From contig NZ_SPNJ01000001.1 of NCBI RefSeq assembly GCF_004563925.1, forward strand, positions 992,001-1,056,000: a stretch of 64,000 nucleotides of DNA. The letters are read 5' to 3'. Shown piece after piece: positions 24,417 through 40,788 of this stretch. Source of the stretch: Herbaspirillum sp. 3R11 (GTDB lineage: Bacteria > Pseudomonadota > Gammaproteobacteria > Burkholderiales > Burkholderiaceae_D). Positions within the stretch are counted from its first letter, which is position 1. The number at the start of each line of letters is the position of its first letter. The notes below the pieces were generated by a model. That model was not told the origin of the DNA. It did not search any database and saw nothing but the letters and a program-made list of their open reading frames with translations. The translations under genes and the position numbers were made by a program.

Positions 24417-25982
24417 TCAGTGCGCCGCAGCTGCCGCTTCCGCTCCTGCGTTGCCCTTGGCCGGCTTGATGATCCAGATCACCGGAATGATCACGAGGAA
24501 AATCACGCCCGACAGCCAGAAGATGTCGTTGATGCCGATCATCGCCGCCTGCGCGTTCAGGTTGCGCTCGATCAGGCCGGTGGCCTGCTCAGTGCTCATG
24601 CCGAAACTGCCGGTGAGATTGCTGAACATCTGCTGCAAGGCCGTGCTGTAGGGAGTGGCATGCTCGGTCAGCTGGGCATGGTGCACGATGGTGCGGTTGT
24701 TCCACGCCGTGGTCGCCACCGAGGTGCCGATCGCGCCGCAGAACACACGTACGAAGCTCGACAGGCCGGCGGCGGCGGGGATGCGTTCCGGCGGCAGGCC
24801 GGACAGCAGCAGCACCGTCAGCGGCACAAAGAACATCGCCGTTGGAATACCTTGCAACAGCGTCGGCAAGATGACCGTCCACTGGTCGACTTCAAGGTTG
24901 TAGTGCGAACGCATGAAGAACACGCAGGCAAAGCCCACGAAGGACGCCGTCGCCACCTTGCGCGCGTCCATGCGCGGCAGGAACTTGCCGATCAGCGGCA
25001 TCAGGATCACCGCGAAAATCCCGATCGGCGCAGTCGACAGACCGGAGTCGATGGAACGGTAGCCGAGATACTGCTGCAGCCATTGCGGCAGTAACACCAG
25101 GTTGCCGAAGAACACGCCGTAGCCGATCGAGATCGCCACCGTGCCACCGAAGAAATTGCGCCTGCCGAACAGGCGCAAGTCCACCACCGGATGGTCGTTG
25201 TTCAACTCCCAGATCACGAAGTAGGCAAAGGCCACCGCCGCAATGATGCCCAACGTCACGATGGTCGGGGAGGCAAACCAGTCCAGGTCCTTGCCCTTGT
25301 CGAGCATGATCTGGAACGCCGCCACCCAGGTGATCAGCAACAGCAGGCCGATGGTGTCGATGGGGAGTTTATGCGTGGGACTTTCGCGGTCCTTGTAGAT
25401 CGCCATCGTCATGCCGGCGGCCAGCAGGCCCACCGGGATGTTGATGTAGAAGATCCACGGCCATTTGTAGGCATCGGTAATCCAGCCGCCCAGCGCCGGT
25501 CCCGCCACCGGCGCAACCACGGCGGTCATGCCCCATAGCGCCAGCGCAAACGAGGCTTTGGATTTGGGGTAGGCCCCCAGCAGCAGCGACTGCGACAGCG
25601 GCACCATCGGGCCGGCCACCAGGCCTTGCAGGACGCGCGCGCCCAGCAGGATCGGCAGCGTCGGCGCCAGGCCGCACAGCCACGACGCCAGCACGAACAG
25701 CAGCACCGACGACACGAACAGGCGCACGGCGCCGATGCGTTGCGTCAGCCAGCCGGTCAGCGGAATCGAGATCGCATTGGCCGCTGCAAAAGAAGTGATG
25801 ACCCAGGTGCCTTCATCGATGGAGACGCCGAGGTTGCCCGAGATGGTCGGGATCGCCACGTTCGCAATCGACGAATCGAGCACGTTCATGAACACCGCCA
25901 GCGACACGCACAAGGTGCCCAGCACCAGCTTGCCGCCGGTCAGCGGCGGCGGTGGTGTATAGGTTTGAGGACTGCTCGCCAT
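24417..25982 (-). CDS. emrB: EmrB/QacA (DHA2) family drug efflux MFS transporter
   Basis: The 521-residue protein has about 14 hydrophobic helices and the DHA2 motifs: VFMNVLDSSIANVAIPTISG (motif D1), GTWVITSFAAANAISIPLTG, LGARVLQGLVAGPMVPLSQS (motif B, conserved Arg) and WGMTAVVAPVAGPALGGWIT (motif C, antiporter signature). It is the inner-membrane proton antiporter of a tripartite pump. Its start is 15 bases after the stop of the HlyD-type gene, and an outer-membrane factor gene lies upstream in the same direction. Substrates of EmrB relatives are hydrophobic drugs and uncouplers; the one used here is unknown. Confidence 0.93.
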   Translation of the reverse strand: MASSPQTYTPPPPLTGGKLVLGTLCVSLAVFMNVLDSSIANVAIPTISGNLGVSIDEGTWVITSFAAANAISIPLTGWLTQRIGAVRLFVSSVLLFVLASWLCGLAPTLPILLGARVLQGLVAGPMVPLSQSLLLGAYPKSKASFALALWGMTAVVAPVAGPALGGWITDAYKWPWIFYINIPVGLLAAGMTMAIYKDRESPTHKLPIDTIGLLLLITWVAAFQIMLDKGKDLDWFASPTIVTLGIIAAVAFAYFVIWELNNDHPVVDLRLFGRRNFFGGTVAISIGYGVFFGNLVLLPQWLQQYLGYRSIDSGLSTAPIGIFAVILMPLIGKFLPRMDARKVATASFVGFACVFFMRSHYNLEVDQWTVILPTLLQGIPTAMFFVPLTVLLLSGLPPERIPAAAGLSSFVRVFCGAIGTSVATTAWNNRTIVHHAQLTEHATPYSTALQQMFSNLTGSFGMSTEQATGLIERNLNAQAAMIGINDIFWLSGVIFLVIIPVIWIIKPAKGNAGAEAAAAAH

Positions 25983-25997
25983 GGAGGATGCGTCCGA

Positions 25998-27242
25998 TCA
26001 GGTGTGAGGAATGACGATGGCGGCCTTCTTCTTCGACGCTGTCTGACTCTGAGCCTGCAAGCCACTGGCGTTGTCGCTGATGATGCGGTCGACGATCTCG
26101 TCGGCTTGCTTGCCGAGGTCGCTGTAGACATTGGTCTGGAAGTTGGTCGGGACGGCTTCCAGCGTCTTGCCGTCGCCGTGGATGTCCACGGTGGCGGTGG
26201 TCGACAGGCCGACGCGCAGCGGATGCGCCTGAACTTCCTGCGGGTTGAGCGCGATGCGTACCGGCACACGCTGGACCACCTTGATCCAGTTGCCGGTGGC
26301 GTTCTGCGCTGGCAGCAGCGAGAAGGCGCCGCCGGTGCCTGCCGAGAAGCCGACCACGGTGCCCTTGTACTTGACGTCGGAACCGTAGACGTCGGCAATC
26401 ACTTCAACCGGTTGGCCGATGCGGATGTGCTTCAACTGGCCTTCCTTGAAATTGGCGTCGATCCAGATCTGCTCCAGCGGCACGATGGCCATCAGCGGAT
26501 TGCCCGGGGCGATGCGCTGGCCCAGTTGCACCGAACGCTTGGACACGAAGCCCGATACCGGCGCCACGATATTGACGCGGGCGTAGTTCAGGTAGGCGTT
26601 GCGCACCTGCGTCGATGCCTGCAGCACGTTCGGATGTTCTGTCACGCTGGTGTGGTCGGTCAGGGCGCGGTTGGCGGCCAGACCGGCACGGGCTTGTTCC
26701 AGCGAGGCGTTGGCGTTCTTGACGGCGTCCTGTGCATGGGCCAGATCTTCTTGCGAGACGGCGCCCGAAGCGATGCCGGCCTGACGGCGCTGCAGATCGT
26801 CGCGGGTGCGGGCAAGATTTGTTTCAGCGGCAGTGACGTTGGCCGCCAGCGTGTCGTTGTTCAGGAAAGTCTGGCGCGTCTGGCGCACGGCCTGGGCCAA
26901 TGCGGCTTCGGCTTGCGCCAGCGCCAGCTTGGTGTCGGCGGCGTCGAGCGACACCAGTTGCTGGCCGGCCTTGACGACTTGCGTGTCGTCGGCCTTGATC
27001 GCGGTGACGGTGCCGCCGACCTGGGCCGAAATCTGCACGACGTTGCCGCCGACGTAAGCGTCGTCGGTTTCTTCGAAGAAGCGGGCGTGCAGGAACCAGT
27101 ACAGGAACAGGCCGATGGCGACGATGATCAGGACGAACGTCAACACCAGCAATTGGCGCTTGCGTTTGCCATTGCCATTGGGAGTGTTGGTGGCGTTGGC
27201 GGTATTGCCGGCGTTGCCGTTTTGTGGAAGGGCTTCACTCAT
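25998..27242 (-). CDS. emrA: HlyD/EmrA family periplasmic adaptor
   Basis: The 414-residue protein has a cytoplasmic start rich in Asn, one membrane helix (LLVLTFVLIIVAIGLFLYWF near residue 30), the lipoyl-like half motif DDAYVGGNVVQISAQVGGTV, a long alpha-hairpin (about residues 100-200, Ala/Gln/Leu rich, QAEAALAQAVRQTRQTFLN) and the beta-barrel part VAPVSGFVSKRSVQLGQRIA. It links the EmrB-type pump to the outer-membrane channel across the periplasm. Confidence 0.93.
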   Translation of the reverse strand: MSEALPQNGNAGNTANATNTPNGNGKRKRQLLVLTFVLIIVAIGLFLYWFLHARFFEETDDAYVGGNVVQISAQVGGTVTAIKADDTQVVKAGQQLVSLDAADTKLALAQAEAALAQAVRQTRQTFLNNDTLAANVTAAETNLARTRDDLQRRQAGIASGAVSQEDLAHAQDAVKNANASLEQARAGLAANRALTDHTSVTEHPNVLQASTQVRNAYLNYARVNIVAPVSGFVSKRSVQLGQRIAPGNPLMAIVPLEQIWIDANFKEGQLKHIRIGQPVEVIADVYGSDVKYKGTVVGFSAGTGGAFSLLPAQNATGNWIKVVQRVPVRIALNPQEVQAHPLRVGLSTTATVDIHGDGKTLEAVPTNFQTNVYSDLGKQADEIVDRIISDNASGLQAQSQTASKKKAAIVIPHT

Positions 27243-27327
27243 GAATTACTCCGTGTATTTCTTTGTTTTTTCTGGGAGGCGCAGCCGCTCATGGGCGGTC
27301 GCGTCACGCTTGTATCTATGATAAAAA

Positions 27328-28836
27328 TTATTGGGCTTTGGTCGCCGTCGGGCTGGAGGGGGCTGCAGTTGTGGCAATAGCCAGTCCTGCCTGCTGTGCG
27401 TCGAAGCCGCCGCCGAGCGCCTTGAACAGACCGATCTGCTGGTTGCGCTTGCTGGCTTCCAGGTTGATCAGCGCCTGTTGCTGGGCGAGCAGGGCGGTTT
27501 CTGCATTGAGCACCACCAGTTGCGAGGTCAGGCCGATGCGATAGCGTTCGCGCGCCAGATCGTAGGCGCGCTGGGTCGATGCCAGCGCTTCGCGGCGTAT
27601 CGGCAACTGGCGATCGATCGAGCGGATGCCGGTGATCTGCCTGGCGACGTCGCCGTAGGCTTCATTGAGCGTCTGGTTATACGACGCCACCGCCATGTCA
27701 TACGACGCATACGAACCCTTCAGGTTGGCGCGCAAGGCGCCGCCTTCGAAGATCGGCAGGCTGATCGCCGGACCGAACGCGATGCTCTTGCTGGAGGCCG
27801 TGAACGGATTCGAATTGAGCAGCGAGTCGAAGCCGATCATGGCCGACAGGTTGATGTCGGGATAGAAGCGCGCCTTGGCGACGTCGATGTCCTTGGTGGC
27901 GGCTTCCACTTGCCAGCGCGCCGCGACGATATCCGGACGACGGCCCAGCAGGTTCAGCGGCAACTGCGCCGGCAATTCCGGCGTGGTCAGCATGGCCATG
28001 CGCGGTGCGGCGATTTGCAGGCCGCGGTCCGGGCCTTTGCCGATCAGCACGCCGAGCTGCTGGCGCGTCAGCGTGATCTGGCCTTCGCTTTGCACCAGCT
28101 GGGCACGTGCTTCCGCGCTGCTGCCTTGCGACTGGTTGCGTTCGATCTGCGTGTCGAGACCGGTCTTGACGCGGTCGGCGGTGATCCTTTGCAACGACTC
28201 GCGCTGGTTGACCGTGCGCTGGGCAATATCGTGCAGCGCGTATTCCGTGGCCAACTGGTTGTAGGTCGAGGCGATCGAGCTGGCCAGCACCAGGCGGGTT
28301 TCCTGTTCGCCGGCTTCTGCTGCCTTCTGCTGTGACACGGCTTGCGCCAGCGCGGCGTGGTTCTTGCCCCAGAGGTCCAGTTCGTAGCCCAGATTCAGGA
28401 AGGCCTTTTTCTCGTTGTACCAGCTGCCGCCGTAGGGAGGCGGATAAATGGTGGTTTCCGGGAACAGGTTGCGCGTGAAGGATGCATCGGCGGTCACGGT
28501 CGGCAACAGCGGCGCGCCCTTGCTTTCGGCCAGCGCGCTGGCGGAAGCGATGCGCGCCTGCGCTTGTTGCAGGCTCGGGCTGTTGGCCATGGCTTCGGCG
28601 ATCAGCGCGCTCAGTTGCGCATCACCGAACTGGTCGACCCAATTGGCAGCGGGCCACTGGCCCTGATTCTGGCCGGCGAGGCTGCGCTCGGCGGCGTAAT
28701 CGCCGGGTTGCGCCAGGTGTTTGTCGCTGTCGATGCCGCTGAAGCTGGCACAGCCGGACAGGCCGAGCATGCCGATGGTGAGCGCGCAAAGGGCGATCAC
28801 CCGCAGACGCAGTGCGGGCGATGAGGCGGATTTCAT
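27328..28836 (-). CDS. Outer-membrane efflux lipoprotein, NodT family
   Basis: The start at ATG 28836 has GGAG six bases upstream; a TTG four codons earlier is the alternative. The 502-residue protein starts with a lipoprotein signal whose lipobox is LGLSGC, so Cys near residue 26 is the lipidated N-terminus. The TolC-like duplicated helix domain shows ANSPSLQQAQARIASASA and LLGRRPDIVAARWQVEAATK, both classic for this family. It is the outer-membrane exit duct and the first gene of the operon reading towards emrA and emrB. Confidence 0.92.
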   Translation of the reverse strand: MKSASSPALRLRVIALCALTIGMLGLSGCASFSGIDSDKHLAQPGDYAAERSLAGQNQGQWPAANWVDQFGDAQLSALIAEAMANSPSLQQAQARIASASALAESKGAPLLPTVTADASFTRNLFPETTIYPPPYGGSWYNEKKAFLNLGYELDLWGKNHAALAQAVSQQKAAEAGEQETRLVLASSIASTYNQLATEYALHDIAQRTVNQRESLQRITADRVKTGLDTQIERNQSQGSSAEARAQLVQSEGQITLTRQQLGVLIGKGPDRGLQIAAPRMAMLTTPELPAQLPLNLLGRRPDIVAARWQVEAATKDIDVAKARFYPDINLSAMIGFDSLLNSNPFTASSKSIAFGPAISLPIFEGGALRANLKGSYASYDMAVASYNQTLNEAYGDVARQITGIRSIDRQLPIRREALASTQRAYDLARERYRIGLTSQLVVLNAETALLAQQQALINLEASKRNQQIGLFKALGGGFDAQQAGLAIATTAAPSSPTATKAQ

Positions 28837-29030
28837 GACATTCTCCAAAGTGGATTCTTATTGCTGTATCTGGAAGTGAATCGAAAAGACGATCTGGAAC
28901 TGCTATTTGAAATTTGAAACTGAATTTTTTGATGAGGTTGCTGCCACCGTTTTGAATATCCTGACTTCCTGGCCGGTGGCGACTTGCTGAGGCCGTTTGC
29001 ACGCTAGCGAGTAAAAACTCATCTTTTTGT

Positions 29031-29049
29031 ATTATACTCGTATATACGA
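29031..29049. promoter_or_regulatory. Divergent promoter with palindromic TetR-type operator
   Basis: A perfect 12-bp palindrome TCGTATATACGA (29038-29049) lies in the 246-base gap between the efflux operon and the TetR gene. On the minus strand a perfect TATAAT (29031-29036) abuts it, and on the plus strand TATACT overlaps its edge. A bound regulator would block both promoters. The match of -35 boxes is weak. No gene is seen in the rest of the gap. Confidence 0.6.
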
Positions 29050-29082
29050 ACATTAGCTCATGTTAGAAAACTGGATTGAAAA

Positions 29083-29700
29083 ATGAAACTGCAGCCTCGC
29101 AAAGAACCTCGCCAAGCACGCTCGAAAGCCATGGTCGACACCATTCTCGACGCCATGGCGAGAGTGCTGGTGGAACGCGGTTACGCCAAGACCAACACCA
29201 ATCTCGTGGCGGAAGCGGCGGGCATCAGCGTGGGTTCGCTATATCAGTATTTCCCCAACAAGGACGCGCTGATTTTTGCGCTGCGCGAGCGCCATGTCGC
29301 GCGCATGCTGCAGTTGTTTGAAGAAGTCGTGGCGAAGATGGATGCGTCCGGCAGTCTTGTACGCGACTTCGAGGCGTTGATCGAAGCGCTGGTGGCGGCG
29401 CATCTGGTCGAGCCGGAACTGAACCGCATTCTGGAAGAAGAATTTCCCTCGTTCCATCTACCGGTGTCGAACCATGTCCGCCAGCGCTTCTTTGAAGCCA
29501 TCCGCGGGGTCCTGACCAAACATCGCAAGAGCATCAGTGCGCCGGACGTGGATGTGGCGGCCTTTGTGGTCCAGCGCATGCTCAAGGCGCTGGTCAATGC
29601 CGTGGTGTTGATCGCGCCGCCGGGATTGAATGCAGCCAGCGTGCGCTCCGAAATTGTTCCTGCCGTTGTTGGTTATTTAACAGCGCAAAGATCGAATTAA
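29083..29700 (+). CDS. TetR family transcriptional regulator
   Basis: The 205-residue protein has the TetR HTH at residues about 15-60: QARSKAMVDTILDAMARVLV, then TNLVAEAAGISVGSLYQYFP with the recognition helix and NKDALIFALRERH. The C-terminal ligand domain is variable and resembles the group with a TetR_C_11/AefR-type effector region. It is divergent from the efflux operon and probably represses it by binding the palindrome in between, with a pump substrate as inducer. Confidence 0.92.
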   Translation: MKLQPRKEPRQARSKAMVDTILDAMARVLVERGYAKTNTNLVAEAAGISVGSLYQYFPNKDALIFALRERHVARMLQLFEEVVAKMDASGSLVRDFEALIEALVAAHLVEPELNRILEEEFPSFHLPVSNHVRQRFFEAIRGVLTKHRKSISAPDVDVAAFVVQRMLKALVNAVVLIAPPGLNAASVRSEIVPAVVGYLTAQRSN

Positions 29701-29818: not shown

Positions 29819-30463
29819 ATGCGTCTATCGTTTGTTCACCGGTATGCCCGTCGCATGCTGGCAGGGAGTCTTGCGTTGCTGGCGGCCGGTGCGGCCTTGA
29901 GCGCTGCAGCCGCGAGCGTCACGGTACAGGTTCTCGATGTCACCGGCGCACCCGTGCCCAATGCTGTGGTGTATGCCGAGCCGACCAGTGGCCAGGTGGC
30001 GCCGAAATCGCTGAAGCAGGCCGAAGTCGAGCAAAAGGACGTCAAATTCTTTCCGCTGGTAAGCGTGGTGCAAGTCGGCACGCCTATTCTCTTCCCCAAT
30101 CACGACAAGGTGCGGCATCACGTCTATTCGTTTTCGCCGGCCAAGACCTTCGAGTTGAAGCTGTATTCCGGCGTTCCGACCAGCCCGATCGTGTTCGACA
30201 AGGTCGGCATGGTGGTGCTGGGCTGTAACATCCACGACCAGATGGTCGCGTACGTGCAAGTGGTCAATACGCCGTTCTTCGGCAAGACCGACATGTCCGG
30301 CCGCGTCAAGCTGGAAGGGCTGGTCAACGGCAAGTATGCGCTGAAGGCCTGGTATTTCAAGATGGGGCCCAATGAGGCAGCCATGGAACAGCCGATCACG
30401 TATCAGGGCGCCGACCTGCACGCCTCGGTCAAGCTGAGCGTCAAGGCCGTTCCGGTGGAATAA
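29819..30463 (+). CDS. Exported cupredoxin-like protein ('methylamine utilization protein' type)
   Basis: I start at ATG 29819 (MRLSFVHRYARRMLAG), giving 214 residues and a signal peptide ending near ALSAAAA. The mature protein begins with a beta-rich segment VTVQVLDVTGAPVPNAVVYA. Type I copper ligand candidates are His in DKVRHHVYSFS and the C-x2-H-x2-M run GCNIHDQM, the spacing found in amicyanin-like cupredoxins. A carboxypeptidase-regulatory-like end (SGRVKLEGLVNGKYALKAWY) follows. Such proteins are often annotated as methylamine utilization proteins, but no mau genes are near. It probably carries or senses copper or electrons in the periplasm and begins a likely four-gene unit. Confidence 0.75.
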   Translation: MRLSFVHRYARRMLAGSLALLAAGAALSAAAASVTVQVLDVTGAPVPNAVVYAEPTSGQVAPKSLKQAEVEQKDVKFFPLVSVVQVGTPILFPNHDKVRHHVYSFSPAKTFELKLYSGVPTSPIVFDKVGMVVLGCNIHDQMVAYVQVVNTPFFGKTDMSGRVKLEGLVNGKYALKAWYFKMGPNEAAMEQPITYQGADLHASVKLSVKAVPVE

Positions 30464-30501
30464 GCGTAGCCGCAAGCTAAAGAGAAACGGGGAGCTCACA
30501 A

Positions 30502-32886
30502 GTGCGTTGGCATCGGCTGGAAAATCGCATCGTTGCGCTATTCATCATCCTGATCCTGCTGGTCCAGCTGGCGGGTTTTATCGCCATTCGCAAGGCGATC
30601 GATGAAAACGCGCGCGCGTCGATCCGCGACGAGCTGATCATCGGCGAGCGCGTGTTCTTGCGCCTGCTGGAACAGAACGCCGACAAGCTGACCCAGGGCG
30701 CACGCCTGCTGGCCTCGGACTTCGGCTTCCGCCAGGCGATCGGCACCGACGATCGCGAAACCATCACCTCCGTACTTGAGAACCACGGCGCGCGCATCGG
30801 CTCGACACTGTCGATGCTGATCGGCACCGACCAGCGTGTCAAAGCTTCCACCCAGGCTTACCCAAGCACCGACCTGCAGCGCAGCGCGCTGGAACTGGTC
30901 AGCAAGGCTGCCACCACCAACGGCGCTTCCGATACCGTGATCGTCGACGACAACCTGTTCCAGATCGTCGCCGTGCCGGTGCGGGCTCCGGTCATCATTG
31001 GCTGGGTCGTGATGGGCTTCCCGGTCGATAAAAAACTGATTTCCGACATGCGCGCCTTGTCGTCGCTGCAAGTCAGCGTGCTGGTCAGCACACGCGCAGG
31101 CCAATGGCAGCAGGATGTGTCGACGCTGGCCAAACCGGAATCGACCATGCTGATGTCGCAATTGCCGCAGTCGCCGGCCAGCAACAGTTTTATCCCCCAA
31201 TTGAGCATCGCCGACAACGACTACAGCGCGCGCGTGCTGGTGCTGGCCAAAGGCCAGGGCAGCCAGAGCGCGGTGGCGGTGCTGCAGCGTTCGATCAGCG
31301 AAGCGGTGGCGCCGTATCGCCGCCTGCAACTTATCCTGCTGTCCATCAGCATTATCGGCGTGATCATGGCGATCTTCGCCAGCGCCTTCGTGGCGCGCCG
31401 CATCACCAGTCCGCTGCGCGCATTGGCCGATGTCGCCAAACGGCTCGGGACCGGCGACTACCGCGCCCGCATCAACATCAAGGGCGGCGACGAAATCGGC
31501 AAGCTGGCCGACGCTTTCGAAAGCATGCGTTCCGGCATCGCCAACCGCGAACTGGAAATCCGTCGTCTGGCGTATTGGGATCCGCTGACCGACTTGCCCA
31601 ACCGCGTGCAGTTCGCCACCTTGCTCAACACCGCCATCGAGCGCGCCAAGACCACCGGCGGCCAATGCCACATCCTGATGATGGACCTGGATCGCTTCCA
31701 GCACGTCAACGACGTGCTCGGCCACAGCTTCGGCGACAGCCTGCTGCGCCAGGTGGGACGCCGTCTGGAACAGCAGCTGGAACGTGAAAACGACAAGGTC
31801 GCGCGTCTCGGCGGCGACGAATACGCGATCCTGCTGCCGGCCACCGATCAGGTCGAAGCGGTGCGCCAGGCCAAGCGCATCCTGAGTTCGCTGGAAGTGC
31901 CGCTGTCGATCGACGAGCAGACCGTGGATCTGGGCGCGGGCATCGGCATCGCCGGTTATCCTGAAAACGGCGAGAACAGCGACACCCTGCTGAGCAACGC
32001 CGAAGTAGCGATGTATGTCGCCAAGCGGCGCGGCAGCGGCTTCACCGTCTATGAACCATCGATCGACAAGAGCAGCCAGGAAAGCCTGAGCCTGCTGAGC
32101 GAACTGCGGCGCGCGCTCGACCGCGACGAATTCCTGTTGTACGCCCAGCCCAAGGTCGACCTGGCCTCGGGGCGCGTGGTCGGCGCCGAGGCGCTGGTGC
32201 GCTGGATGCATCCCGAGAAGGGTTTCATCGGCCCGGACAATTTCATCCCGTTTGCCGAGACCACCGGCTTCATCCGCATGCTGACGTCGTGGATGCTTGG
32301 CAAAACGGCAATCCTCTGCAGCGAAATGCAAAAACGCGGTATTTCGCTCAAGTTTTCGGTCAATCTGTCGACACGTGATCTGTTGGATCAGGATTTGCCG
32401 CAGCACTTTGCCGATATCCTGGAGCGCAACAACCTGGCGCCGTCGTCGATGTGCCTGGAGATCACCGAGAGCGCCATCATGGACGATCCGGTGCGCGCGC
32501 AGCTGACGCTGGAGCGACTGCACGCCATGGGCGTGGAACTGGCGATTGACGATTTCGGTACCGGTTATTCTTCGCTGGCTTATCTGAAACGCCTGCCGGT
32601 GGATGAGCTGAAGATCGACAAATCGTTCGTGATGAACATGGAGCACGACGCCGACGACGCCAAGATCGTCAAGTCGACCATCGACCTGGGCCACAACATG
32701 GGCCTGCGCGTGGTGGCCGAAGGGCTGGAGACGCTGGCGGTCTGGAACCTGCTGCGGCAGATGGGTTGCGACCAGGCGCAAGGTTATTTCATGAGCAAGC
32801 CGATGCCCGGCGATCGCTTCATCGAATGGCTAGAGCAATGGACGCCGCCGGAAGTACCGAGCCAGTCGGAGAATATGGCAATTTGA
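30502..32886 (+). CDS. Membrane GGDEF-EAL protein with periplasmic sensor and HAMP
   Basis: The start is GTG 30502 with GGGGAG about eight bases before it. The 794-residue protein has a membrane helix at the N-terminus (ALFIILILLVQLAGFIAI), a periplasmic sensor of about 250 residues, a second helix (LILLSISIIGVIMAIFASAF), HAMP (RRITSPLRALADVAKRL), GGDEF with the site written GGDEY (ARLGGDEYAILL), and EAL with GAEALVRWMHP, EITESAIM, DDFGTGYSSLAYLKRL and AEGLE. The EAL motifs look active; the GGDEY variant makes cyclase activity uncertain. The gene lies 38 bases after the cupredoxin gene, which suggests that its sensor responds to the exported partners. Confidence 0.93.
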   Translation: MRWHRLENRIVALFIILILLVQLAGFIAIRKAIDENARASIRDELIIGERVFLRLLEQNADKLTQGARLLASDFGFRQAIGTDDRETITSVLENHGARIGSTLSMLIGTDQRVKASTQAYPSTDLQRSALELVSKAATTNGASDTVIVDDNLFQIVAVPVRAPVIIGWVVMGFPVDKKLISDMRALSSLQVSVLVSTRAGQWQQDVSTLAKPESTMLMSQLPQSPASNSFIPQLSIADNDYSARVLVLAKGQGSQSAVAVLQRSISEAVAPYRRLQLILLSISIIGVIMAIFASAFVARRITSPLRALADVAKRLGTGDYRARINIKGGDEIGKLADAFESMRSGIANRELEIRRLAYWDPLTDLPNRVQFATLLNTAIERAKTTGGQCHILMMDLDRFQHVNDVLGHSFGDSLLRQVGRRLEQQLERENDKVARLGGDEYAILLPATDQVEAVRQAKRILSSLEVPLSIDEQTVDLGAGIGIAGYPENGENSDTLLSNAEVAMYVAKRRGSGFTVYEPSIDKSSQESLSLLSELRRALDRDEFLLYAQPKVDLASGRVVGAEALVRWMHPEKGFIGPDNFIPFAETTGFIRMLTSWMLGKTAILCSEMQKRGISLKFSVNLSTRDLLDQDLPQHFADILERNNLAPSSMCLEITESAIMDDPVRAQLTLERLHAMGVELAIDDFGTGYSSLAYLKRLPVDELKIDKSFVMNMEHDADDAKIVKSTIDLGHNMGLRVVAEGLETLAVWNLLRQMGCDQAQGYFMSKPMPGDRFIEWLEQWTPPEVPSQSENMAI

Positions 32887-32947
32887 GTTGCTGCACCCGG
32901 AGTCGATACAGATTCGGGGCAGCAGAGTTGGGGGAAAGGGGAAATAC

Positions 32948-33862
32948 ATGACCAATAAAACAGAAAGGGCGCTGCGACGAGCGTCCGTGATCGCATCGGG
33001 CGCGTTCATGGCATTGATGTCTGCAGCGGCATCGGCGCAGAGTTCAATGACGCCCGACATGGGCAAGCTGATGGCCACGGCCGGGGTAGTCCAGGTCGAA
33101 GGCGCGGGCGGCGGCGGCCTGGTGCCGTGGGCTACCATTACCGGTTACGGCAGCCGCGACAGTTACGGCGCCAATGTGCATTACACCTATGTCGGCACCC
33201 AGGATTACAAGCTGGCCTCGTACGGCGTCGCCGTCGGCATCGCCGACCGTGTCGAGTTGTCGGTGGCCAAGCAGCGCTTCACCGGCAGCCAGGCGCCGCT
33301 CAACAATCTGCGCATCGACCAGGACATCTACGGCGTCAAGGTCAAGCTGGCCGGCGACATCGTCTACGACCAGGACACCTGGATGCCGCAGATCGCCGCC
33401 GGCGTGATGGTCAAGCGCAATAACGGCATCGGCGGCCTGGGCGCGGTCGCCAACGTCAAGGACCTCGGCGCCAAGAGCGATTCCGGCATCGACTATTACC
33501 TTGCGGCGACCAAGCTGTTCCTCGACCAGAGCCTGCTGGTCAACGCCACCGTGCGCGCCACCAAGGCCAACCAGATGGGCATCCTCGGTTTCGGCGGCGA
33601 CAAGAGCGACCGCTACCAGGCCATGCTGGAAAGCTCGGTAGCCTATCTGCTCAATCGCCAATGGGTGGTCGGTGCGGAATACCGCATGAAGCCGCGCAAC
33701 CTCGGCGCCGACAATGAGAAGGATTACTACGACGCCTTCGTCGCCTGGTTCCCGAGCAAGAACCTGTCGCTGACGCTGGCCTACGTCTCGCTCGGCGACA
33801 TCACCATCTACAACCCCAAGCGCCAGGACGGCGTCTATCTTTCCGTGCAGGCGGGCTTCTGA
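32948..33862 (+). CDS. DUF3034-type outer-membrane-like protein
   Basis: From ATG 32948 (GGGGAAATAC upstream) the product is 304 residues with a signal peptide ending near SAAASAQ. The mature part alternates short polar/hydrophobic strands and Gly-rich turns (GGGGLVPWATITGYGSRDSY, VGIADRVELSVAKQRF, LTLAYVSLGDITIY) and ends in Phe (SVQAGF), as outer-membrane beta-barrels do. It resembles the DUF3034 family, whose function is unknown to me. It starts 61 bases after the GGDEF-EAL gene and overlaps the globin gene by one base. Confidence 0.72.
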   Translation: MTNKTERALRRASVIASGAFMALMSAAASAQSSMTPDMGKLMATAGVVQVEGAGGGGLVPWATITGYGSRDSYGANVHYTYVGTQDYKLASYGVAVGIADRVELSVAKQRFTGSQAPLNNLRIDQDIYGVKVKLAGDIVYDQDTWMPQIAAGVMVKRNNGIGGLGAVANVKDLGAKSDSGIDYYLAATKLFLDQSLLVNATVRATKANQMGILGFGGDKSDRYQAMLESSVAYLLNRQWVVGAEYRMKPRNLGADNEKDYYDAFVAWFPSKNLSLTLAYVSLGDITIYNPKRQDGVYLSVQAGF

Positions 33863-34305
33863 TGAAAAATCCGACGACAGTATCCGGCTGGCTGGCCGCA
33901 ACTCTGATTGCGCTGGCGACCGCCTTGCCGGCTCATGCCCAAAAAACCGACGACAGCCTGTACCGCGATCTGGGCGGCCTGGACGTGCTGACCAAAGTGG
34001 TCGACGACACGCTGGCGCTGGCGCTGGCCGATGCCCGCATCAAGGACACCTTCAAGGAAACTGACATGAAGCGGCTGGCCAAGCTGATCACCGAACAGTT
34101 CTGCGAACTGAGCGGCGGTCCGTGCAAGTACAGCGGCGACCCGATGAAGGAAGTGCACCAGGGCCTGGGCCTGAGCAACATGCAGTTCAACGCGTTGGTG
34201 GAGGATTTGCAGGCGGCGATGGACAAGTCGAACATCCCGTCGCGCACGCAGAACAAGCTGCTGGCCCTGCTGGCGCCGATGCAACGCACTGTTGTCACAA
34301 AGTAA
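33862..34305 (+). CDS. Exported group 1 truncated haemoglobin
   Basis: The 147-residue protein has a signal peptide (LAATLIALATALPAHAQ), unlike most truncated globins, so it should be periplasmic. The trHbN fold is clear: SLYRDLGGLDVLTKVVDD, then MKRLAKL, then GDPMKEVHQGLGLSNMQFN with the proximal His. Aligned by eye to Mycobacterium trHbN, the distal Tyr B10 is replaced by Leu (DDTLALAL) and Gln E11 by Ile, while Phe CD1 is kept (KDTF). Two Cys in FCELSGGPC could form a disulfide. The ATG overlaps the DUF3034 stop (TGATG), so the two are translationally coupled. It may bind NO, CO or O2 differently from classical trHbN. Confidence 0.85.
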   Translation: MKNPTTVSGWLAATLIALATALPAHAQKTDDSLYRDLGGLDVLTKVVDDTLALALADARIKDTFKETDMKRLAKLITEQFCELSGGPCKYSGDPMKEVHQGLGLSNMQFNALVEDLQAAMDKSNIPSRTQNKLLALLAPMQRTVVTK

Positions 34306-34367: not shown

Positions 34368-34422
34368 CTCTGTCATGGGTAAGGCAAAACCGCGCAACCC
34401 TGCAACGAAAAGGAATATCGCC

Positions 34423-34791
34423 ATGAAACTGCTCCCACTGTCCCTGCTGACATTGACCTTGCTGTCGTCCGCCGCACCTGCCGCCTTTGCTGAAGAGATG
34501 GCCGTCAAGAAAGCCGACGATGTCCTCGTCACCACCAAGGGCATGACCGTCTATACCTTCGACAACGATCCGGCCGGCAAGAGCGTCTGTAACGGTCCTT
34601 GCGCCACTGCCTGGCCGCCGGTAGCACCGGTCGGCACGCCCAGCGCGCCGTTCTCGGTGATCAAGCGCGATGATGGCAGCGCCCAGCTGGCCCTCAACGG
34701 CAAGCCACTGTATCTGTTCGCGTCCGACAAGAATCCGGGCGATCGCAACGGCGACAACTTCAAGAACATCTGGCACGTCGTCAAGAACTGA
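34423..34791 (+). CDS. Small secreted protein, PF03640 (COG4315) repeat type
   Basis: The start at ATG 34423 (AAAAGGA upstream) gives 122 residues with a signal peptide ending AAFAEE. The mature part holds two copies of the family motif: TTKGMTVYTFDNDPAGKSVC with CNGPCATAWPPVAP, and LNGKPLYLFASDKNPGDRNG. The two Cys in CNGPC are conserved in the family. Function is not established; members are commonly found beside ECF sigma and anti-sigma genes and may be a target of that sigma factor, which fits the promoter just upstream. Confidence 0.87.
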   Translation: MKLLPLSLLTLTLLSSAAPAAFAEEMAVKKADDVLVTTKGMTVYTFDNDPAGKSVCNGPCATAWPPVAPVGTPSAPFSVIKRDDGSAQLALNGKPLYLFASDKNPGDRNGDNFKNIWHVVKN

Positions 34792-34830: not shown

Positions 34831-35331
34831 ATGTCCGACGAAAGTCACCTGCTGGCTTGTCTGCCGCGTCTGCGCCGTTATGCGCGGGCGCTGGTGGGCG
34901 ATCGCGCCGGCGCCGACGACCTGGTGCAGGACACCATGGAGCGCGCCTGGCAAAAGCTGTCGAGCTGGCGCAAAAGCAGCGACATGCGGCCCTGGCTGTT
35001 CAGCATCATGCACAACCTGCACGTCGACCAGCGCCGCAAGCCGGTAATTCCGACAGTCACGCTGGACGACGAAGATGCCCTGGCAACGCAGGCTTACACG
35101 CCGGACCGCCTGGTCGGCTACGACCTCGAGTCGGCGCTGCGCCAGCTGGCGGCCGAACAACGCGAGATTTTATTGCTGGTCGTGCTCGAAGAGATGACCT
35201 ATGAAGAAGTGGCCGCGACGCTGAGCATTCCGCTCGGGACCGTCATGTCGCGCCTGTCGCGCGGCCGCGAGCGCTTGCGCATGCTGGTCGAGGGACGGCC
35301 CCAGCATTCGACGTTGAAGGTGGTCAAATGA
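34831..35331 (+). CDS. ECF-type RNA polymerase sigma factor
   Basis: The 166-residue protein has region 2 (RRYARALVGDRAGADDLVQD and RPWLFSIMHNLHVDQRR) and region 4 (LAAEQREILLLVVLEEMTYE, then SIPLGTVMSRLSRGRERLR). It directs RNA polymerase to a small regulon in response to an envelope signal. It follows the PF03640-like gene by 39 bases and overlaps the anti-sigma gene in ATGA. It probably transcribes its own operon from the GGAAT/CGTC element upstream. Confidence 0.94.
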   Translation: MSDESHLLACLPRLRRYARALVGDRAGADDLVQDTMERAWQKLSSWRKSSDMRPWLFSIMHNLHVDQRRKPVIPTVTLDDEDALATQAYTPDRLVGYDLESALRQLAAEQREILLLVVLEEMTYEEVAATLSIPLGTVMSRLSRGRERLRMLVEGRPQHSTLKVVK

Positions 35332-36140
35332 ATCCGAACCCGTTGCCGGTTACCGAAGCCGATTTGCAGGGCTATGTCGACGGCTTGCTGCCGCAGGAGC
35401 GGTTGGCCGACGTTGCCGCCTGGCTTGAACACCATCCGGAAGAAGCGGAGCGCCTGCGCACTTACCGCCACCAGAACCAGGCCTTGCATCTGCTGTTCGA
35501 TCCGGTGCTGGATGAACCGCTGCCGGCGCGCCTGGCGGCGCGTCCGAGCAGCAACTGGGAATTGCTGCGGCGTTACGCCGCCGTGTTTATCGTCGCGATC
35601 TTTGCCGGCGCCGGCGGCTGGTATCTGCATGGCGCGGCGCAGTCGTCGCCGGTGGGCTGGATTGCCGCCGTGGCGGGTAACGCAACGCGCGTGGATGCGC
35701 CCTTGATGATGGCGCGCCGCGCCGCAGTGGCGCACGCCGTCTATACGCCCGATCCGCGTCGTCCGGTGGAAGTCGGCGCCGACCAGGAAGAAGCGCTGGT
35801 GCGCTGGCTGTCCAAACGCATCGGCGCCGATGTCCGCGCGCCCAAACTCGCTCCCCTGGGTTACGAACTGATCGGCGGACGTTTGCTGCCGGGCCAGAGC
35901 GCACCGGTGGCGCAGTTCATGTACCACGACGGCGCAGGCCGGCGACTGACCTTGTACGTTTCCACCGACCAGGTGCAAAACAAGGACACCGGCTTCCGCT
36001 TTGCACAGGAAGGCACGGTCAACGTGTTCTACTGGATCGACGGCAAATTCGGCTACGCCTTGTCAGGCAGCATCGACCGTGCAGAGCTGGCGCGCATCGC
36101 CAACAGCGTCTACGAACAGCTGGACAAACCGGCCCGATAG
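35328..36140 (+). CDS. Anti-sigma factor, membrane-anchored
   Basis: The 270-residue protein overlaps the sigma gene by four bases. The N-terminal cytoplasmic part (ADLQGYVDGLLPQERLADVA, with EHHPEEAERLRTYR) has the arrangement of an anti-sigma helical domain, with a His-His pair but without an obvious CxxC zinc site. One membrane helix is near residue 90 (AAVFIVAIFAGAGGWYL). The periplasmic part (LGYELIGGRLLPGQSAPVAQ) could sense the signal. It should hold the ECF sigma factor inactive. Confidence 0.88.
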   Translation: MNPNPLPVTEADLQGYVDGLLPQERLADVAAWLEHHPEEAERLRTYRHQNQALHLLFDPVLDEPLPARLAARPSSNWELLRRYAAVFIVAIFAGAGGWYLHGAAQSSPVGWIAAVAGNATRVDAPLMMARRAAVAHAVYTPDPRRPVEVGADQEEALVRWLSKRIGADVRAPKLAPLGYELIGGRLLPGQSAPVAQFMYHDGAGRRLTLYVSTDQVQNKDTGFRFAQEGTVNVFYWIDGKFGYALSGSIDRAELARIANSVYEQLDKPAR

Positions 36141-39065: not shown

Positions 39066-39102
39066 AATAAATTAGTCATTTTATATGTATGACTAATTTG
39101 TT
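39066..39102. promoter_or_regulatory. Long inverted repeat in the hipBA promoter
   Basis: Arms of 14 bases (39066-39079 and 39089-39102) pair with one mismatch; the inner nine bases ATTAGTCAT / ATGACTAAT are perfect around a 9-base spacer. The site is AT-rich and sits about 70 bases before the hipB start, as expected for an antitoxin operator. Confidence 0.6.
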
Positions 39103-39176
39103 ATGCATTTCCTTGCTTTTTCAGAAATGCATAATAAAATGGACATCAAGCCCATCAGCACAATTTATTATGCAAT
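39095..39176. promoter_or_regulatory. Three copies of an antitoxin-type half site
   Basis: Related 16-mers occur at 39095-39110 (reverse, reading AAATGCATAACAAATT), 39125-39140 (AAATGCATAATAAAAT) and 39161-39176 (reverse, ATTGCATAATAAATTG). The last covers the hipB start codon. The common core is TGCATAAYAAA. Repeated sites in a hipB leader suggest cooperative autoregulation. Confidence 0.58.
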
Positions 39177-39466
39177 CACTTCTCGCCCTCGGCAGTCAGA
39201 TCCGCAGCGCTCGCAAGGCCCGGCAACTCAGTTCGACCAGCCTGGCCGAGCGCAGCGGCATCCATCGCAATACCCTGCAGGCACTGGAAACCGGCAAGGG
39301 CAATATCGAGCTCAGCAAACTGCTGTCCATCTGCACCGAACTCGGGCTGGAGCTGTTGCTGGTGCCGCGGGAAGTCTCGGCACAGCGCGCCGCCGAACAA
39401 GGCGGTGAGGGCGAGCGCACGGAATTGTCCGAACGTCTGCACGCCTTGATGAGGAACGGATCATGA
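39170..39466 (+). CDS. hipB: HipB-type antitoxin, XRE family
   Basis: I start at ATG 39170 (MQSLLALGSQIRSARK), 98 residues; the frame is open further upstream but runs through the operator repeats. The helix-turn-helix covers residues about 8-60: IRSARKARQLSSTSLAERSG, then IHRNTLQALETGKGNIELSK. It should bind DNA at the promoter repeats and neutralise the kinase encoded next, with which it overlaps in ATGA. No ribosome site is evident, which together with the operator over the start may keep expression low. Confidence 0.87.
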   Translation: MQSLLALGSQIRSARKARQLSSTSLAERSGIHRNTLQALETGKGNIELSKLLSICTELGLELLLVPREVSAQRAAEQGGEGERTELSERLHALMRNGS

Positions 39467-40788
39467 GCATGTTGCGATCCCTGCGCATCCGTCTCGGCGT
39501 CACTGAAGTCGGTTCGCTGTTTGCCCTCGACGATGGGCGCGTGTATTTCCGCTTCGACGATGCCTACGCCATCGACCCGAACCGACCGGTGCTGTCGCAG
39601 CTATATCGCGGCTCGACTGAAGAGCGCACCGTCGCCCAATTGCTCAATCCCGCGCTGGAGGCCAATCGCGGCGACGGCAAGGGCGGCTTGCCGGCGTTTT
39701 TCCAGAACCTGCTGCCGGAAGGCCAGTTGCGCAAGCACCTGATCGAGCGCGCCGACCTGGCGCCGGACGACGAATTCGGCCTGCTGGCGTATTGCGGCAA
39801 GGATTTGCCGGGCGACGTGTCGGCCTTGTCGGAAACCCTTGATGACCGCCATCTTGGCCGCCTGATCGGGCAGGGCCGCGATAGCTATGAAATGAGCGCC
39901 GGCCAGTTGCCCACGCCGGATGGGGAATCGATCTCCGGCGTGCAGCCCAAGATCGGGCTGGTCCGTGCCACGGGCGGACGTTACGTGATGCGTTCCAAGG
40001 ACGCGCGCGGCGCGCATTTCATCGGCAAGCTGCCGGCCTCGGATTATCCGCAGATGCCGGAGGTGGAGTTTTCCTCGCTCGCATTGGCGCGCGCTGCGGG
40101 TGTCCAGGTGTGCGAGCACGAATTGGTGCCGCTGACGGCGATCGCGGATCGCTTGCCGTTCGGGCTGCGCAGCGATGCTGAGAATTTCCTGCTGATCCAC
40201 CGCTTCGACCGTGACGCCGGCACCGCGACCGGGCGGCTGCACATGGAAGACTTCGCCCAGATCACCGGCACTCCGGCCGCTGCCAAATATGCCGGCACCT
40301 ATGCAGCGCTCGGCGTGGTGCTGCAAGAGCGCAGTATCAAGGGAGAGGAAGACCTGTTCGAGTTGCTGCGCCGGATCAAGGTGAACGAACTGCTCGGCAA
40401 CTTCGACGCCCACCTCAAGAATTTCAGCATGCTGTATCGCACGCCGCAGGCGGCTGAGCTGTCACCGGCCTATGACATCGTGGCGTATTCGGCTTACCTC
40501 GCCGGTCACGGTCACGCCTTGGCGTTTGCCCCCGGCGAGAAGGCGCGCCAACTGCTGACGCCGGCGGTGCTGCGCGAGCTGGCCAATATCTGGCACATTC
40601 CCGAACCCAAGCTGCAAATGGTGCTGGTCGACACCGTCGAGCGTGCGATGCAAAGTTGGCCGGCGTTGTTGCAAAGCCTGCCGCTCAATGACACCCAGCG
40701 CAGCCGCATCAAGGCGCATCTGGACAACAACCCCAGCGTGATCGCCTGGCAGCGCCGCGCCGCGCGCAAGATCAGCGGCAAGGCATGA
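39463..40788 (+). CDS. hipA: HipA-type serine/threonine kinase toxin
   Basis: The 441-residue protein has the N-terminal HipA subdomain (FRFDDAYAIDPNRPVLSQLY, FFQNLLPEGQLRKHL) and the kinase part with GVQPKIGLV, HRFDRD, NELLGNFDAHLKNFSMLY (catalytic Asp and Asn) and LSPAYDIVAY (Mg-binding Asp). E. coli HipA phosphorylates glutamyl-tRNA synthetase and slows growth; the target here is not known. The length matches E. coli HipA. The start overlaps hipB by four bases. Confidence 0.93.
   Translation: MSMLRSLRIRLGVTEVGSLFALDDGRVYFRFDDAYAIDPNRPVLSQLYRGSTEERTVAQLLNPALEANRGDGKGGLPAFFQNLLPEGQLRKHLIERADLAPDDEFGLLAYCGKDLPGDVSALSETLDDRHLGRLIGQGRDSYEMSAGQLPTPDGESISGVQPKIGLVRATGGRYVMRSKDARGAHFIGKLPASDYPQMPEVEFSSLALARAAGVQVCEHELVPLTAIADRLPFGLRSDAENFLLIHRFDRDAGTATGRLHMEDFAQITGTPAAAKYAGTYAALGVVLQERSIKGEEDLFELLRRIKVNELLGNFDAHLKNFSMLYRTPQAAELSPAYDIVAYSAYLAGHGHALAFAPGEKARQLLTPAVLRELANIWHIPEPKLQMVLVDTVERAMQSWPALLQSLPLNDTQRSRIKAHLDNNPSVIAWQRRAARKISGKA

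Follow-up and report, generated by a model that had tools for sequence, protein, structure and literature searches.

What could a predicted copper protein, an enzyme of cyclic di-guanosine monophosphate (c-di-GMP) turnover, a DUF3034 (PF11231) protein and an exported truncated haemoglobin do together? The question is raised by four adjoining genes of Herbaspirillum sp. 3R11, which lie in a stretch of 64,000 nucleotides (the window) that is part of contig 1 of a 5.2-Mb genome in 10 contigs. The four genes form a real, widely conserved set, with DUF3034 and the globin as its invariant core, and two of its features are new findings: the natural fusion of globin and barrel in the Duganella/Pseudoduganella/Rugamonas group, and the swap between lineages of the output beside the cupredoxin (EAL, cyclase, kinases or none recognised). 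The whole is best explained as an envelope sensing and redox module, a reading that we put forward tentatively and with slightly less than even confidence.

DUF3034 is present in 39 of 398 genomes of a phylum sample and in 68 of 195 genomes of a family sample, the window's own genome being counted in both. Eighty neighbourhoods were fetched, from each of the 38 other DUF3034 genomes in the phylum sample and from 38 of 67 such genomes in the family sample, and three annotated plasmid neighbourhoods (two Caballeronia, one Novosphingobium) bring the total to 83 loci with 85 DUF3034 genes. A globin gene lies within 4 kb of 84 of these genes. All four partners are found together for 46, globin and cupredoxin accompany 11, globin and EAL gene 2 and globin alone 25, leaving one DUF3034 gene without partners (locus L115; L and G numbers are our handles for loci and genomes); L101 is a broken second copy. 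The EAL gene was counted at 330 bits or more only, a threshold by which divergent EAL genes may be missed. The plasmid annotations read DUF3034, group 1 truncated hemoglobin, methylamine utilization protein or carboxypeptidase regulatory-like, and EAL domain. Among the best 80 of 587 named loci, which are rich in Oxalobacteraceae because they were ranked by likeness to the window, the globin adjoins DUF3034 in 79 (the exception is a 4-kb contig), with all four genes in 13, globin and cupredoxin in 16, globin and EAL gene in 1 and globin alone in 49. The fetched and named sets overlap in part; pooled and freed of exact duplicates they give 160 DUF3034 rows, in which all four genes occur 59 times, globin and cupredoxin 26 times, globin and EAL gene 3 times, globin alone 70 times and no partner twice.

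A preliminary description of this DNA would have been undermined had the four genes seldom been neighbours in other genomes. They adjoin in alpha-, beta- and gammaproteobacterial loci, in rearranged order, and a joint function is therefore well supported. The picture drawn there, a single c-di-GMP enzyme with three exported partners, holds for only one version of the set, whereas 101 of the 160 rows are without cupredoxin, EAL gene or both within 4 kb. No third partner common to the loci without an adjacent EAL gene was found among 30 neighbour proteins from 16 of them; many of these are housekeeping proteins or have no match, and ECF sigma factors, RskA anti-sigma factors and Lipoprotein_15 proteins recur.

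The 70 rows with globin alone would also suit two independent units sharing one neighbourhood, barrel and globin with their own envelope role and cupredoxin and sensor with another. The DUF3034 genomes G261, G213, G225, G389, G246, G216 and G372 carry cupredoxin and EAL genes side by side away from the DUF3034 locus, and such a pair is also present in G303, G288, G336, G318, G234 and G007, which have no DUF3034 match. We nevertheless consider such independence quite improbable, given that both units are joined in several different orders and that they co-occur across the 398 phylum genomes. At 120 bits or more, a cut chosen after the scores were known, the globin is found in 39 of 39 DUF3034 genomes against 2 of 359 others and the cupredoxin in 38 of 39 against 14 of 359, scores that favour DUF3034 genomes because both profiles were built from DUF3034-linked members. 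At the tool's own cut (E 0.001) the counts become 39 of 39 against 98 of 359 for the globin (p about 1e-20) and 38 of 39 against 61 of 359 for the cupredoxin (p about 6e-25), p-values that overstate independence because the genomes are related.

The gene orders seen are cupredoxin-EAL-DUF3034-globin, DUF3034-globin-cupredoxin-EAL, and EAL-cupredoxin divergent from DUF3034-globin. On a quick DUF3034 tree, in which the nearest named relatives of the window protein are from Herbaspirillum, the place of the globin (fusion being one state) changes 9 times with the pairing retained; well-supported branches force fewer changes. In 12 loci the globin and DUF3034 follow one another, in that order and across a short linker, in a single uninterrupted frame. 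Carriers of this fusion include Pseudoduganella violacea, P. rivuli, P. ginsengisoli, P. violaceinigra, Duganella fentianensis and Rugamonas brunnea. The genus of one carrier has DUF3034 in 58 of 74 genomes, and its 30 listed loci, which have genomes in common with the 12-locus fusion set, comprise 12 fused cases and 18 with a separate globin inside the fetched 3.7 kb. The fusion state changes 5 times on the quick tree, 1 of these changes being forced by starred branches, so that one origin or several would fit. An N-terminal domain on an even-stranded barrel should face the periplasm, which would therefore place the haemoglobin at the periplasmic mouth. As separate observations, DUF3034 and globin are duplicated in tandem, with cupredoxin and EAL genes upstream, in L127, L138, L145, L146, L148 and L170 (the named ones are Undibacterium), and a divergent gene set recurs in Duganella-type loci.

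The window's DUF3034 protein belongs to its Pfam family by a wide margin (338.8 bits against a cut-off of 25, over profile positions 1-255 of 255), and the preliminary view of it as outer-membrane-like is upheld by the AlphaFold model, in which a barrel of 12 strands is predicted at a pLDDT (predicted local distance difference test) of 79.8 with residues 29-60 unordered. Together with a signal peptide, judged by eye, and an aromatic C-terminus (Phe in the window; F, Y or W in 151 of 169 DUF3034 open reading frames, ORFs), the even strand number points to a predicted outer-membrane beta-barrel. Its best structural matches are FapF (Z 19.2; 3.1 Å over 220 residues at 14% identity) and KdgM and NanC (Z 17.5-18.3). 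The barrel fold is thus common to DUF3034 and the amyloid secretion channel FapF, and at this identity the likeness speaks for a common fold and not for a common function. The openly accessible literature yielded no description of the function of DUF3034/PF11231. A mention of DUF3034 in the accessible part of PMC12548924 is apparently a slip for DUF3037 and has another subject, and PF11231 appears in the accessible part of PMC4255298 as a table line for a 251-residue actinobacterial protein, likewise on another subject.

The copper barrel PcoB (7pge, Z 13.0) is also among the structural matches. It lends something to the idea of copper or haem handling, in which the barrel would pass a cofactor or carrier, cupredoxin and globin would be metal or haem carriers and the sensor would report supply; the invariant copper ligands described below fit this as well. 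The barrel is better matched elsewhere, by FapF and by KdgM (Z 18.3), no copper ATPase, CopC/D or TonB gene is among the eight window proteins scanned, and the upstream regions show no enrichment of copper or Fur sites, so that we give this idea a quite low probability.

The haemoglobin is predicted to be exported: a hydrophobic N-terminal stretch is present in 82 of 84 aligned globins (window included; one fragment of fewer than 90 residues dropped), with a lipobox-like motif in 19. The assignment to group 1 of the truncated haemoglobins stands in part. The protein matches Bac_globin (PF01152) at 52.2 bits and, by profile, Mycobacterium tuberculosis HbN (2gl3, E 2e-26; 1idr, E 2e-25), with which it has the proximal F8 His in common (His99, in 84 of 84). 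The best match in the PDB is an HbN entry with Phe and Val at the B10 and E11 places in the alignment, presumably an engineered mutant. At positions assigned from the HbN alignment, the distal pocket (B10, CD1, E7, E11, G8) is wholly apolar in 78 of 84 globins; Tyr stands at B10 in 2 of 84, so that the PheB9-TyrB10 pair typical of truncated haemoglobins is missing and the globin is at most a divergent, group 1-like member. It differs from HbN in its predicted export, in the replacement of TyrB10 and GlnE11, and in Cys81 and Cys88, each present in 83 of 84. TyrB10 and GlnE11 hydrogen-bond the bound O2 in HbN according to the accessible part of PMC3493545. With no hydrogen-bond donor for O2 in the haem pocket, the input would more probably be nitric oxide (NO) or the redox state of the haem than O2 bound tightly. 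Truncated globins with the Cys pair and an export-like N-terminal stretch also occur away from DUF3034 in L248, L249, L252, L253 and L255, and point to a wider envelope globin family.

The near absence of these O2-bonding residues bears on a further alternative, rather unlikely in our judgement, in which the barrel haemoglobin is an envelope enzyme and not a sensor. With the cupredoxin donating electrons, it would detoxify or reduce NO, peroxide or O2, and the membrane sensor would only follow its by-products or be co-regulated. Many loci indeed retain globin and barrel with no EAL enzyme adjoining, and a truncated haemoglobin fused to a multihaem cytochrome in cable bacteria is proposed, in the accessible part of PMC11976967, as a periplasmic terminal oxidase. 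Besides the pocket, what tells against an enzyme is the cupredoxin, which keeps beside cache-type sensors with swapped outputs, even where DUF3034 and globin are missing.

The first protein has no Pfam family over the cut-off (its CarboxypepD_reg match is sub-threshold). Its profile matches are CuNIR, pseudoazurin and amicyanin, and in the AlphaFold model (pLDDT 90.3) residues 66-149 form a predicted copper domain with structural matches to cupredoxins up to Z 12.1. Transthyretin-like 2nsm matches over residues 32-209 (Z 11.1); lying within this span, the copper domain therefore appears to be inserted into a CarboxypepD_reg-like domain. The His-Cys-His-Met ligands (H100, C136, H139, M142) are present in 59 of 59 rows, window included. 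Fold and ligands agree with the copper-type protein first proposed, and predict a type-1 copper cupredoxin. Its relatives carry the public label methylamine utilization, which we rejected as a functional guide: no mau-type gene is among the eight window proteins scanned nor, label apart, in the three annotated plasmid neighbourhoods. Among the fetched loci, L114 does have a gene of the CCP_MauG family nearby.

A same-strand sensor of cache-HAMP-like type lies within 400 bases of 84 of 118 cupredoxin ORFs (a redundant set, at 40 bits or more), and 73 of these sensors have an EAL domain and 11 have none. Nucleotide cyclases account for two of the 11, a Ser/Thr kinase and a hybrid histidine kinase for one each, and in seven no output is recognised. 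In G064 and G281 the sensor (dCache_3, HAMP) bears an adenylate/guanylate cyclase domain, in G154 a Ser/Thr protein kinase, and in L251 a PAS hybrid histidine kinase with a weak sensor match stands beside the cupredoxin; in the Lysobacterales-type loci L189, L195, L196, L209, L212, L219 and L220 it is a weakly matching cache- or CHASE4-like membrane protein. Retention of the pairing while outputs are exchanged marks the cupredoxin as a candidate periplasmic sensory partner. The earlier proposal that an envelope signal reaches an inner-membrane sensor and is passed on to c-di-GMP gains support from the swapped outputs, which also make c-di-GMP only the commonest output. In loci lacking DUF3034, the cupredoxin or EAL gene is often followed by an ORF of 404-427 amino acids; of the ten that were scanned (one of them divergent), six match porins or beta-barrels weakly, under the cut-off, and four match nothing.

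The window's own sensor is, as first described, a membrane GGDEF-EAL protein with a periplasmic sensor domain (Pfam dCache_3, HAMP, GGDEF and EAL). All of what we take to be the ten EAL catalytic residues are kept in 50 of 50 enzymes (rows chosen at 330 bits or more, from 48 sources). The GGDEF motif is intact in 26 and degenerate in 24, and reads GGDEY with RxxD upstream in the window. The conserved EAL and often degenerate GGDEF domains suggest that the output is probably c-di-GMP breakdown and the window enzyme probably a c-di-GMP phosphodiesterase.

In the envelope sensing and redox module that we tentatively prefer, the exported haemoglobin would work at the periplasmic mouth of the predicted DUF3034 barrel, as their stable gene pairing and natural fusion suggest. 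The cupredoxin would be the type-1 copper periplasmic partner of a cache-type inner-membrane sensor, because their pairing is retained while the sensor output is swapped, and would probably exchange an electron with the haem. The dCache_3 domain may read the state of these proteins and pass a signal through HAMP, upon which the EAL domain, intact by sequence, would break down c-di-GMP in the window. Among the inputs first suggested (NO, O2 or copper), NO would be favoured, together with the haem redox state. Barrel and globin would form the core, and cupredoxin and sensor a second unit, plugged into it or working with another barrel-like protein. A bolder version is unlikely, yet deserves a hearing: a new envelope receptor, in which haemoglobin on the periplasmic mouth of a channel gates or reports NO or haem redox state and drives, through a blue-copper protein, cache-type inner-membrane sensors whose outputs can be exchanged; gas would then be sensed outside the cytoplasm.

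Several points weigh against the sensing module. No EAL enzyme lies within 4 kb in 98 of the 160 DUF3034 rows, 70 of which have the globin alone, 34 of the 118 cupredoxin ORFs are without an adjacent sensor, and the sensor match is weak (24-49 bits) in 8 of the 11 non-EAL cases. Contact of globin or cupredoxin with the sensor is inferred, and copper and haem loading are predicted. Exported Cys-pair globins away from DUF3034 mean that this pair is not exclusive to DUF3034-linked globins. In the accessible part of PMC4720485, Leu at E7, E11 and G8 of truncated haemoglobins is associated with low O2 affinity, O2 release is described as very fast where the pocket is hydrophobic, and the role suggested for low-affinity group N globins is to store or transport O2 and not to sense NO; our preference for NO goes beyond what that paper says. 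Finally, the upstream regions show no enrichment of FNR/DNR, RpoN, CueR, CopR or Fur sites: when the sequence ahead of 429 approximate gene starts was scanned for exact consensus strings (FNR/DNR, RpoN, CueR, CopR/CusR, Fur, LexA, NarL, RpoE), the hits did not clearly outnumber those in shuffled sequences, nor did a sigma-70 and terminator scan of the window yield more sites than shuffled sequence did. Twelve loci of the window's genus or of named Herbaspirillum were aligned, and 10 of them share a conserved upstream element, TCAGAAA ... CGTATAGTG (with variants); the window and L117, its nearest relative, do not have it, and it is therefore not used as evidence.

That a relay from outer membrane through periplasm and inner membrane to c-di-GMP exists is known from YfiBNR (TpbB), in which, according to the accessible part of PMC3375315, outer-membrane, periplasmic and HAMP-bearing inner-membrane parts set c-di-GMP. 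That system is modular, and its output domains have been replaced from lineage to lineage, a change of the same kind as the output swap seen beside the cupredoxin. The window has a barrel in place of the OmpA/PAL lipoprotein, cupredoxin and globin in place of YfiR, a dCache_3 sensor, and an EAL instead of a GGDEF output, and no YfiR or YfiB Pfam match is among the eight window proteins scanned, which places the set outside YfiBNR. In globin-coupled sensors a globin is joined in cis to an output domain, and there too a globin is tied to c-di-GMP turnover; here, by contrast, the globin is truncated, exported and separate from the enzyme, and where it is fused its partner is the predicted outer-membrane barrel, so that the set falls outside that class as well. 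The cable-bacteria pentahaem cytochrome fusions resemble ours in that an envelope truncated haemoglobin domain is fused to another protein, and differ, as far as the accessible part of PMC11976967 goes, in having a multihaem cytochrome as partner, not a barrel, and no copper or c-di-GMP part.

No description of the gene set was found in openly accessible literature, and the accessible parts of PMC3770913 and PMC11904497 hold nothing bearing on it. No precedent for the globin-barrel unit was found in that literature; the c-di-GMP arm alone would be a new variation on known systems. An outer-membrane barrel fused to haemoglobin would be a new workplace for a globin, and one family of cache-type sensors gains in the cupredoxin a candidate periplasmic partner. 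With this module, an unstudied gene set carried by many proteobacteria, experiments could address how gas or redox signals are perceived before they reach the cytoplasm and converted to c-di-GMP or kinase signals.

The ORF coordinates (Table 1) bear out the places first given for the four genes, with gaps of 38 bases between the cupredoxin and GGDEF-EAL genes and 61 bases before DUF3034. The ATGA-type overlap reported at the DUF3034/globin junction is a misreading of TGATG, a one-base overlap (TGA 33860-33862, ATG 33862-33864).

Table 1. Genes of the window locus, with the loci and positions of related features elsewhere.
Feature	Position or loci	Strand	Basis or remark
Exported cupredoxin-type protein (predicted)	29819..30463	+	Type-1 copper domain inside CarboxypepD_reg/transthyretin-like domain; signal peptide
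Inner-membrane dCache_3-HAMP-GGDEF-EAL protein, probable c-di-GMP phosphodiesterase	30502..32886	+	GTG start; Pfam
DUF3034 (PF11231) protein, predicted 12-stranded outer-membrane beta-barrel	32948..33862	+	Pfam, AlphaFold; signal peptide, C-terminal Phe
Exported group 1-like truncated haemoglobin (predicted)	33862..34305	+	PF01152, HbN profile; Cys81/Cys88 pair
Lipoprotein_15 (PF03640) secreted protein, possible accessory	34375..34791	+	Pfam; ATG at 34423 is the likelier start
ECF-type sigma factor, possible regulator	34831..35331	+	Pfam sigma-70 domains
Probable anti-sigma factor	35328..36140	+	Position only (overlaps sigma gene); 0 Pfam families
Globin-DUF3034 fusion loci	L134, L159, L163, L165, L169, L173, L177, L178, L181, L183, L185, L186		
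Non-EAL sensors (two nucleotide cyclases, Ser/Thr kinase, hybrid histidine kinase)	L235:1912-3846, L246:1709-3616, L244:1532-4258, L251:5763-8672		
Loci with ORF of 404-427 amino acids	L230, L231, L234, L236, L238, L239, L240, L242, L243		
TCAGAAA ... CGTATAGTG element	L102, L116, L118-L122, L143, L144, L147		Upstream of cupredoxin gene

Downstream, the Lipoprotein_15 gene is a recurrent neighbour: of 8 loci fetched from the window's genus, 7 have it following the globin, and in 21 of 163 loci a member of its similarity cluster is no farther than 5 kb from DUF3034. ECF-type sigma genes are also close to DUF3034 in L150 and L155, and genes of the Lipoprotein_15, ECF sigma and anti-sigma kind recur around DUF3034 in L150, L155 and L193. 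Upstream, window positions 24417-29700 hold a tripartite efflux set (MFS transporter, periplasmic adaptor and outer-membrane factor, judged by eye from the translations) with a divergent TetR regulator (Pfam). Farther downstream, at 39089-40788, a small helix-turn-helix gene overlaps a HipA-like gene, by eye a possible HipBA-type pair.

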